From Pseudosulfitobacter koreensis (GTDB lineage Bacteria; Pseudomonadota; Alphaproteobacteria; Rhodobacterales; Rhodobacteraceae): a DNA stretch of 64,000 nt. A model generated the notes under the pieces. It searched no databases, was not told where the DNA came from, and saw only the letters and a list, made by a program, of their open reading frames with translations. Position 1 is the stretch's first letter, and each line of letters opens with the position of its first letter. Location: assembly GCF_024733015.1 (NCBI RefSeq), contig NZ_JANKJG010000002.1, positions 62,001-126,000 on the forward strand. Reading direction: 5' to 3'. Made by a program: the position numbers and the translations under genes. Positions 30,524 through 32,409 of this stretch are shown here, piece by piece.

Positions 30524-30895
30524 ATGCGTTTTACCATTCTGGCCACACTGGCCGCCACACTGCTTGCATCATGCGGCACCCCGCCCGAACCGGGCAGCTA
30601 TGATCGCAGCCTGAACGTCAAGACCGCAGGGGCGGCTGTTGTCTCGGGTTTCGCGAAACTGTGCGGGGGCAAACGCATCCCCGAATACCGCGAAAGCTTT
30701 ATCACCACCATGAAGGCACAGCGCCCCGTCTCCGCCGAGGCCGAAGCCAAGATCCGCAGCCAGTTTGCCGCCGCTGACGCGCAGATCGCGGCCCGCTTCG
30801 ATGCGGCATCGCGCAAGAAACAATGCACGGATTATCCGCTGGACCAGGCTGCAATCGACCGCGGCGTCGCTGGTGATTTTACCGGCCAGATCTGA
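30524..30895 (+). CDS. Small putative lipoprotein
   Basis: A 123-residue protein with a lipoprotein signal peptide, lipobox LLASC at residues 13-17. The mature part is Ala-rich and charged, contains two further Cys (KLCGGK, KKQCTDY), and has the pattern YRESFITTMKAQRPVSAEAEAKI. Family not recognised. AAGGAACC lies upstream of ATG 30524. It stands alone between the GDPD terminator and the SatD-like gene. Confidence 0.7.
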   Translation: MRFTILATLAATLLASCGTPPEPGSYDRSLNVKTAGAAVVSGFAKLCGGKRIPEYRESFITTMKAQRPVSAEAEAKIRSQFAAADAQIAARFDAASRKKQCTDYPLDQAAIDRGVAGDFTGQI

Positions 30896-31071
30896 TCTCG
30901 CTGGTGCGGGCGGGCAAACACCGCCCGCACCCATGATGCCGTTTCGCGTCTCGTGCCGGGCCGATTGCCCCTGTCCTCCGCCCACGCCGTCTTTTTTCGC
31001 CCGCGCCCGCTCCCGGCAGTTGCAAGGTCGCGGATTTGCCCGCACAAACGTCGGCAAAGAGGACCTTGCCC

Positions 31072-31683
31072 ATGCCGCACCTGGCCGTTCTGACCGGAGA
31101 TATCGTCAAATCCTCCACCCTGCCTGCGGGCGGGCTGGCGCAGATATTCGACGGCTTGGACGCAGCCGCCGCCGCTTTGTCAGGCTGGCAGGATCAGGCC
31201 CCGCACCTGACCCGCGCACGCGGCGACAGCTGGCAGGCGGTCTGCGCCGCCCCCTTTGCCTTTCGCGCTGCTCTGGCCTTTCGTGCGGGCGTGCGGATGA
31301 CGGGCAAGGGCCACGACACCCGCATCGGTCTGGCCATCGGCGATGGCACGGTAAATGGCACAGGCACCGATCTGGCCGATGCCGATGGCCCGGCCTTCGT
31401 GGCGTCCGGCCGCGCGCTGGACGAAATGGCGCGCACCGCGCGGCTGTCCACGAACCTCGCACCCGCAACGCTGCGCGCCGCCCTGCCCCTTGCCGATCAC
31501 ATCAGCAGCCGCTGGACCGTGCGACAGGCTCAGATCGCATTGGCTTCGCTGGCCGTGCCGACACCCACGCAGGATGCGCTGGCCGACCACTTCGAGGTCA
31601 GCCGCCAGACGATCCACAGGCTGCAAGACACTGCTGGCATCCGGGCCCTGGTCGAGGTTTGCGAGATGCTGGAACATGGCTGA
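31072..31683 (+). CDS. SatD-like protein with C-terminal helix-turn-helix
   Basis: A 203-residue cytosolic protein. The N-terminus LAVLTGDIVKSSTL, the central RARGDSWQAV and RIGLAIGDG resemble SatD-family proteins, whose fold recalls nucleotidyl-cyclase-type domains. The C-terminal 40 residues contain a clear HTH (DALADHFEVSRQTIHRLQD), suggesting DNA binding. AGAGGA precedes ATG 31072. It is followed by a DUF3307-like membrane gene, a pairing also seen for SatD proteins elsewhere (streptococcal satD/satE acid-tolerance locus), and two copies of a 7-bp dyad lie between the two genes. Family assignment from memory; molecular function unknown. Confidence 0.65.
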   Translation: MPHLAVLTGDIVKSSTLPAGGLAQIFDGLDAAAAALSGWQDQAPHLTRARGDSWQAVCAAPFAFRAALAFRAGVRMTGKGHDTRIGLAIGDGTVNGTGTDLADADGPAFVASGRALDEMARTARLSTNLAPATLRAALPLADHISSRWTVRQAQIALASLAVPTPTQDALADHFEVSRQTIHRLQDTAGIRALVEVCEMLEHG

Positions 31684-31694
31684 CCCCACAAAAA

Positions 31695-31742
31695 GCAGCC
31701 ATATTCGGCTGCACACCGCAATAGCAGCCATATTCGGCTGCT
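31695..31742. promoter_or_regulatory. Two copies of a dyad between the SatD-like and DUF3307-like genes
   Basis: GCAGCC-ATATTC-GGCTGC at 31695-31712 and AGCAGCC-ATATTC-GGCTGCT at 31723-31742 are identical over 18 bases and repeat every 29 bp. They fill most of the 69-bp gap. The HTH of the SatD-like protein is the obvious candidate ligand; alternatively they form two tandem RNA hairpins upstream of the second start codon. Confidence 0.65.
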
Positions 31743-31752
31743 TTAACCTCCC

Positions 31753-32409
31753 ATGATCGACACCGCACTGGCCCTCACCCTGGCGTGGTTGCTGGCATTT
31801 CACCTGCTCCGTGGCCCGCTGGCCCTGCGCGCAACTGTCGTCTTTGCGTTGGCTTGGGCAGCCTTGGGCGGTGCCGCGCATGTGGCGGCGGCAGCGGCAC
31901 TGGGCCATGTCGCAGTCGCAATGGCGTCCACGCGCATGCCTGTCAGCCTCTGGGCCTATCTTGGCGCGCAACTGGCGCATCTTGCGGTGATCCTTGCCGC
32001 CGTGCTGTGGCTGCCCGAAGCCTTTGCGGGCGGTCTATGGGCAGGCCACGCGCCCGCATTGCGCGCCCCGGCGGTGCTTCTGGGCGGTCTGATGGCCGCG
32101 ACCCTGCTGGGCGGCCCCGCCGTGGGTCTGCTGATGGCCCCCTGGCGCGCGGCGGCACAGATCGAGGGGCTGGACAATGCGGGCCGCATCATCGGCCTGA
32201 TGGAGCGCGCGCTGATCTACCTGATGGTGATGATCGGAGAGCCGACCGGCATCGGCTTTCTGATCGCGGCCAAATCTATCCTGCGATTCGAAACCGCGTC
32301 GCGCGACCAGAAGGCCAGCGAATACGTGATTATCGGCACCCTCGCGTCCTTCGGCTGGGCGCTGGCATGGGGGTTTGCCGCACAAAGCCTGATCGCGACC
32401 CTGCGATAG
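31753..32409 (+). CDS. DUF3307-like polytopic membrane protein
   Basis: A 218-residue protein with about six hydrophobic helices, starting with IDTALALTLAWLLAFHLLRGP and an Ala-rich helix, and ending with RIIGLMERALIYLMVMIGEPTGIGFLIAAKSILRFE...SEYVIIGTLASFGWALAWG. That C-terminal block (E-R-x4-L, AAKSILRF, EYVIIGTL) is typical of the membrane partner of SatD proteins. No Shine-Dalgarno is visible (the ATG follows TTTAACCTCCC), so translation may depend on the upstream gene or on RNA structure in the dyads. Transport or signalling role unknown. Confidence 0.75.
   Translation: MIDTALALTLAWLLAFHLLRGPLALRATVVFALAWAALGGAAHVAAAAALGHVAVAMASTRMPVSLWAYLGAQLAHLAVILAAVLWLPEAFAGGLWAGHAPALRAPAVLLGGLMAATLLGGPAVGLLMAPWRAAAQIEGLDNAGRIIGLMERALIYLMVMIGEPTGIGFLIAAKSILRFETASRDQKASEYVIIGTLASFGWALAWGFAAQSLIATLR

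Follow-up and report, generated by a model that had tools for sequence, protein, structure and literature searches.

The window analysed here is a 64,000-nucleotide stretch of the Pseudosulfitobacter koreensis genome (contig NZ_JANKJG010000002.1, positions 62,001 to 126,000 of the forward strand), and the coordinates of the locus are given as positions in it. A SatD-like gene is followed on the same strand by a gene for a DUF3307-like membrane protein, and the two open reading frames (ORFs) are separated by a gap of 69 base pairs (bp) that contains two copies of an inverted repeat, or dyad. Based on comparison with related loci in two phyla, SatD is likely a one-component DNA-binding regulator that uses dyad arrays with a 28-30 bp period as operators, and in this genus it would act on its membrane partner through its C-terminal helix-turn-helix (HTH). 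The features of the locus are listed below.

31072..31683, + strand: SatD-like gene, 203 amino acids (aa), ATG start with a normal Shine-Dalgarno sequence (AAGAGGA) upstream
31072..31506, + strand: SatD residues 1-145, predicted class III nucleotidyl cyclase fold (AlphaFold model and fold comparison), probably degenerate
31519..31680, + strand: SatD residues 150-203, C-terminal HTH region, with helices 150-161, 167-174, 178-188 and 190-202 in the model
31603..31608, + strand: codons for Arg178 and Gln179, which open the recognition helix and covary with half-site bases 1 and 2
31695..31712, no strand: dyad 1, GCAGCC-ATATTC-GGCTGC
31724..31741, no strand: dyad 2, GCAGCC-ATATTC-GGCTGC, 20 bp with the flanking A/T (31723-31742)
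31753..32409, + strand: DUF3307-like membrane protein gene, 218 aa, retaining the C-terminal core of 85 aligned partners

The 61 genomes searched, the window's own included, contained five further members of the genus (G001-G005), and the gene pair was found in all five; the window SatD was 82% identical to that of Pseudosulfitobacter pseudonitzschiae. The two 18-bp dyads are identical (GCAGCCATATTCGGCTGC) and lie 29 bp apart from start to start, as the initial annotation of the gap had described. The length of 18-20 bp which it had assigned to them held for dyad 2, which reaches 20 bp as AGCAGCC-N6-GGCTGCT, but dyad 1 stops short of it, its outermost pair being A opposite A. The lack of a Shine-Dalgarno sequence before the second gene was borne out, with no purine-rich stretch in front of the DUF3307-like ATG (TTTAACCTCCC-ATG) or in front of its counterpart in any of the five congeners.

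Single copies of GCAGCCN6GGCTGC occur at chance level in the genome, as would be expected if the dyads had arisen by chance or as an artefact of sequence composition: four were present in the genome sequence searched (about 90% complete), and a reversed control pattern also gave four. Two of the four are the gap dyads; the remaining two differ in spacer and overlap ORFs. A pair of such dyads was present only once, in the gap, and no regulon was seen elsewhere in this sequence with the exact arm pattern. Both dyads at the 29-bp spacing are retained in all five congeners (L and G numbers denote loci and genomes), perfectly in L009 and with one arm mismatch in the first dyad in L006, L007, L008 and L010. 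Absence of the dyads from close relatives that keep the gene pair had been named beforehand as the outcome to look for, and none of the five relatives showed it. Because all five other genomes of the genus have both dyads at 29 bp, the pair is not a product of chance, and the spacing and position controls given below refute chance or composition as an explanation, the probability of which was considered negligible.

Among 394 genomes of the window's bacterial family (one per genus), a profile built from 15 SatD proteins matched 93, and in 84 the match was strong (E 5e-39 or better); of these 84, 81 were read, leaving out G097 and the partial matches G302 and G373. These 81 loci from 81 genera, together with L021 from another phylum and L022, formed a first set of 83 loci, or 88 with the five congeners L006-L010, which were left out of the array-spacing and start-distance counts (hence n = 83). 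By a motif test, a DUF3307 frame lay 3' of satD in 85/88 loci, and of the three remaining loci, L063 and L089 contain the beginning of such a frame and L103 does not. Upstream of satD, 66 perfect 6-N6-6 dyads were counted compared with 4.5 expected from dinucleotide shuffles, and direct 5-mer repeats peaked at 29 bp (324, versus 94 at 28 and 94 at 58). Arrays of 2-4 dyads with a 28-30 bp period flanked satD in 66/83 first-set loci at a common threshold, and six other spacing classes reached only 0-8/83. In the 88 loci, the arrays were situated upstream of satD only (51), both upstream and in the gap (13), in the gap only (11, the six of the window's genus among them) or in neither place (13). 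Some loci below the threshold carry degenerate arrays by eye (L036, L063 and L066).

L021, a SatD relative in a metagenome-assembled genome labelled Ignavibacterium, pointed to a second phylum. Here PF16264 had matches in 38 of 198 genomes, with 32 exceeding the cut-off, and 112 of 395 genomes matched profile A3. A second set of 92 loci, mostly the best-scoring, was taken from these 112 genomes, and 28-30 bp arrays were detected in 71 of them, with other spacings giving 0-3/92; L168 and L169 have identical sites. In L021 and L126 the arrays lie in the gap, as in the window. Control stretches inside satD and DUF3307 contained 0-2 arrays in either set. Judging from these loci, the dyad arrangement is a family-wide architecture and no local oddity. 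In 385 genomes of Alphaproteobacteria, no full-length SatD match was obtained outside the window's family, and nine other genomes gave weak partial matches, seven of which fell in the cyclase part and two in the HTH part.

The letters of the dyads were found to vary together with the recognition helix of the adjacent SatD. Half-site base 1 tracks residue X of the motif [ST]-X-Q at the start of this helix (X is Arg178 in the window). The first-set table comprised the 76 of 88 loci with an array passing the 99% null, the 12 loci without a passing array being omitted. With Arg at X, base 1 was G in 56/61 loci (six of the 56 from the window's genus), A in four and T in one; with Gln it was A in 4/4; and with Pro, Thr, Ala or Lys it was T in 10/11 (Pro 6, Thr 2, Ala 1, Lys 1), the remaining Lys going with A. 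A second covarying pair was formed by Lys at helix index 6 and C at base 5, which occurred together in 12/12 loci, versus C5 in 6/61 loci without this Lys. The SatD proteins of the genus have Arg with G1, and the relatives L061 (Gln) and L052 (Lys) have A1.

The rule of Arg with G, Gln with A and Pro, Lys, Thr or Ala with T was written down before the second phylum was searched, and all other residues were set to T there; Tyr and Glu, with one array each, had no place of their own in the written rule and were scored among these others. L021 belongs to both sets and had been seen before the rule was written, leaving 91 second-set loci new to it, and nine of these places (L126 and eight others) had already been read, after the rule was written. 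In the arrays as found, Gln was accompanied by A in 38, T in 10 and C in 8, Arg by G in 7 and T in 2, and Lys, Ala, Pro, Tyr, Thr and Glu (one each) by T in 6/6. The rule fitted 51/71 arrays as found, compared with a mean of 32.4 and a maximum of 43 in 20000 permutations. All of the misses were arrays with a 28-bp period, which have a second symmetric register, and when this register was allowed the fit was 71/71 (permutation mean 50.0, maximum 61). For example, GTTA was present in the second register in L186 and L190, with the helix K-R-A-A-V, and ATTA in one or the other register in L181-L185, with N-Q-A-A-V and otherwise the same helix. Given the weakness of the tree from the SatD N-terminal domain (L006-L008 left out), DUF3307 was added. 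In the combined tree (L006-L008 and L021 left out), the Arg trait changed 11 times. Well-supported branches provided six independent contrasts, of which on average 5.6 agreed with the rule and 0 went against it (median p 0.031, range 0.031-0.125).

This covariation supports SatD as the protein that would read the dyads. It also bears on the alternative that the dyads only happen to lie beside the gene pair and are bound by another factor, such as a nucleoid protein or a different HTH protein. Several loci depart from the residue-base rule, as would suit such a factor, but the site letters change with the adjacent SatD residue in two phyla and at several tree contrasts, a pattern that another factor would not produce, and the alternative was regarded as very unlikely. 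The covariation is strong enough for specificity switches to be predicted by single substitutions.

A C-terminal HTH behind a cyclase-like domain, as initially proposed, was supported by the AlphaFold model of SatD (predicted local distance difference test, pLDDT, 88.9) and by fold comparison. Residues 1-145 matched Rv1625c (7yz9) with a VIA Z of 13.1 and a root-mean-square deviation of 3.0 over 139 residues, and the best Foldseek match of the cyclase part was Ma1120 (E 4.3e-4); the HTH region gave weak Pfam HTH matches below the cut-off. D10 and D52, which we take to be the metal-site positions of class III cyclases, are invariant in alignment A1. R114, presumably the transition-state position, is replaced by H, D or E in some A1 relatives, the catalytic positions having been assigned by eye. 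The N-terminal domain is probably a sensor and not an enzyme. Because the window protein alone misses PF16264 in a direct hmmscan, family membership was judged by profile comparison. Two of the 15 A1 members matched PF16264 at E up to 0.1 (best 1.6e-5), and hhalign of the family profile A7 with SatD profile A6 from second-phylum relatives gave a probability of 99.8 over 192 columns. The second-phylum proteins L124, L126 and L127 all pass the PF16264 cut-off, and their loci have arrays that exceed the threshold (L124 and L127 are entered as L149 and L157 in the second-phylum array table). By full-length profile similarity, the window protein is assigned to the SatD family.

No Pfam match was obtained for the partner protein of the window, including PF11750, which covers the N-terminal half. 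Partners at the same position in L013, L022, L016 and L126 do match PF11750 (E 6e-10 to 6e-18), and the window protein is therefore called DUF3307-like, a divergent homologue. It shares the core G-x2-IG-x-L-ER ... KS-x-LR ... EYVIIGTLAS, the columns of which are 85-100% conserved in 85 aligned partners including itself. Its structure model was poor (pLDDT 59.5). Pfam reported no cyclic-nucleotide-binding domain in the five DUF3307 partners scanned. Partner L013 matched phrog_2470, a membrane protein, and neither window protein had a match in PHROGs.

Variants of the arrangement were also observed. In the SatD subfamily of L112-L123 (helix of KNRDQIW type), the dyads are mostly of GTTTCA type at 28-29 bp with a 7-base spacer, L119 excepted, and in L112, L113 and L118 the next frame is about 120 aa and by eye resembles only the C-terminal core of DUF3307. 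In L015, L039, L067 and L073, the gap dyad includes an ATG (ATGCTTGC) which is apparently the DUF3307 start codon, so that the first codons would belong to the operator.

The position of the arrays relative to the genes suggested how SatD might act. The satD ATG lies 0-4 bp beyond the end of a dyad in 44/83 first-set loci, and only 7 of these 44 have a Shine-Dalgarno-like tetramer. T at -12 and A at -11 were present in 63% and 72% of 43 loci with a start-proximal dyad, compared with 31% and 51% of 39 others (L005-L010 left out of this profile). The dyad at the ATG, the scarcity of Shine-Dalgarno sequences and the T-12/A-11 enrichment point to a leaderless promoter under the dyads, and binding of SatD would then repress it. 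The C-terminal HTH, presumably dimeric, would bind each 6-N6-6 dyad with one half-site per HTH, and 2-4 dyads at the 28-30 bp period would together make up a single operator. In most of the family, the array just 5' of satD probably covers its promoter, which would give autoregulation of a satD-DUF3307 operon, and some loci have a second array in the gap. In the window's genus, the array passes the threshold only in the gap, which makes the partner, and not satD itself, the likely target; in the window, SatD may cover a weaker promoter or stop transcripts that read through from satD. Repression would be expected rather than activation, with a presumed consequence for DUF3307, and the N-terminal cyclase-fold domain would most likely sense a nucleotide-like ligand. 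Overall, the proposal of a DNA-binding SatD with a duplicated operator through which it controls the partner gene gained support from congener conservation, arrays in two phyla and helix-letter covariation.

The dyads could also act as RNA, as two tandem hairpins or as one long hairpin formed by pairing of both copies, and gate the translation of DUF3307. The gap RNA folds at -26 kcal/mol (z -5.2), although a duplicated palindrome is expected to fold well anyway, and both the strand-asymmetric spacer (A-WWWW-C in 12/12 genus copies) and the missing Shine-Dalgarno sequence of the DUF3307-like gene would fit this explanation. However, the tracking of SatD helix residues by the half-site letters is a covariation without a place in RNA action. 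The dyads lying 0-4 bp before the satD ATG make a leaderless start likelier than a gated Shine-Dalgarno, and the T-12/A-11 enrichment fits a leaderless promoter as well. Moreover, G-U accounted for 38/218 non-complementary arm positions (about 36 by chance), showing no G-U preference in the arm mismatches, and no credible Rfam match was obtained. The tandem hairpins that had been suggested as the other option are consequently disfavoured, and gating by RNA in either form was considered unlikely.

For the reading of SatD as a regulator on dyad operators, a number of observations weigh on the other side. A search of 30880-31780 revealed no recognisable sigma-70 promoter or consensus, and only 11/44 first-set loci have a TTG-N16-19-TANNNT pair that overlaps the start-proximal dyad. 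The spacers of the gap dyads (31701-31706 and 31730-31735) are strand-asymmetric in all 12 genus copies, the spacer ATATTC is found again in L052 and L062, and a symmetric operator does not explain an asymmetric spacer. Arrays over threshold were missing from 17/83 first-set and 21/92 second-set loci. As to the code, 5/61 Arg loci lack G1 as found (by eye, L086 is mixed and the other four, L017, L056, L070 and L094, resemble register shifts), and 20/71 second-phylum arrays miss the rule as found, the second register having been introduced after the figure of 51/71 was seen. The permutations ignore relatedness, and the SatD N-domain tree alone offered only two contrasts on well-supported branches. 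Individual exceptions are L052 (Lys with A1), L099 (Pro with ACAYCC, sub-threshold, in the same clade as the window's genus) and the Sphingomonas plasmid locus L241, whose SatD has Arg, for which the rule predicts G1, and whose dyads read TCAACC. Among four plasmid pairs tested, only L241 had an array over threshold, and L238, L239 and L240 had none.

One further conserved stretch was noticed at 31018-31048, 5' of satD (GTTGCAAGG...GGATTTGCCCGCACAA). It is well conserved across the six genus genomes, contains no 6-N6-6 array and may represent either a degenerate site or the promoter of satD.

A DUF3307 gene next to a SatD-like one was also present on plasmids of E. coli (pEC34A), Segatella copri, Salinivibrio costicola and Sphingomonas insulae (profile E 1e-19 to 8e-54), the last of these although the class-wide sample showed no full-length SatD outside the window's family. 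On pEC34A, a mobilizable plasmid of 3.77 kb, the pair (L238, 1792-3481) fills nearly half of the sequence and shows TCAACC-N5-GGTTGA by eye; five Klebsiella plasmid records of 3770 bp match the DUF3307 core too, and no near match of the pEC34A pair was found in E. coli genomes. On the Sphingomonas insulae plasmid (L241, 1760-6211), two TCAACC-N6-GGTTGA dyads lie 28 bp apart in the gap between the SatD-like and DUF3307 genes, the pair adjoins an annotated Pycsar effector gene, and a gene with an adenylate/guanylate cyclase domain follows two genes further on. In a defence library only weak matches to the SatD HTH region were found (best E 8e-4), and tblastn of phage records returned no match for either window protein. 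In the passage cited, PMC8504454 describes a jumbo-phage protein with a Sulfitobacter DUF3307 protein as its best match. The plasmid occurrence and the Pycsar neighbour, which are few cases, suggest a partly mobile sensor-effector module. It is a tentative and rather doubtful extension that SatD-DUF3307 is a widespread module of this kind, in which a degenerate cyclase-fold, nucleotide-sensing repressor would release a membrane effector via a 28-30 bp array, possibly in phage defence or envelope stress.

If the proposed role is true, SatD, known mainly by its acid-tolerance name, would join the families of transcription factors. Its residue-to-base code would be readable for the most part, an operator would be predicted at most of the loci examined, and the single predicted target would be a functionally uncharacterised family of membrane proteins. 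Both the SatD and the DUF3307 families would become directly testable. A sensor of cyclase fold in a small one-component regulator is, to our knowledge, unusual. In open PubMed Central, subscription papers being outside its coverage, no paper naming both SatD and DUF3307 was found. The passages cited from PMC11323703 and PMC10326533 give the role of SatD as acid tolerance, or essentiality without mechanism, and not as DNA binding, and PMC11323703 cites its association with acid stress in Streptococcus mutans.

The SatD family (PF16264), named for streptococcal "secretion and acid tolerance", is the known family with which the window protein shares full-length profile similarity. Residues 1-145 resemble class III nucleotidyl cyclases (Ma1120, Rv1625c and Rv1900c) in fold and in two invariant Asp, whereas in SatD the R114 position varies and an HTH is attached directly. 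Like one-component repressors of the IclR, LacI and MarR type, SatD combines an HTH with dyad operators and covariation between recognition residue and site letter; work on residue-site correlations exists for the IclR, LacI and MerR families. Unlike repressors of this type, SatD has a different sensor fold and a rigid 28-30 bp array of 2-4 dyads that is tied to a single membrane protein partner. Pycsar and other systems of a cyclase and a membrane effector likewise place a cyclase-fold protein beside a membrane protein, but in the SatD pair the cyclase-fold protein itself bears an HTH and is accompanied by operator arrays.
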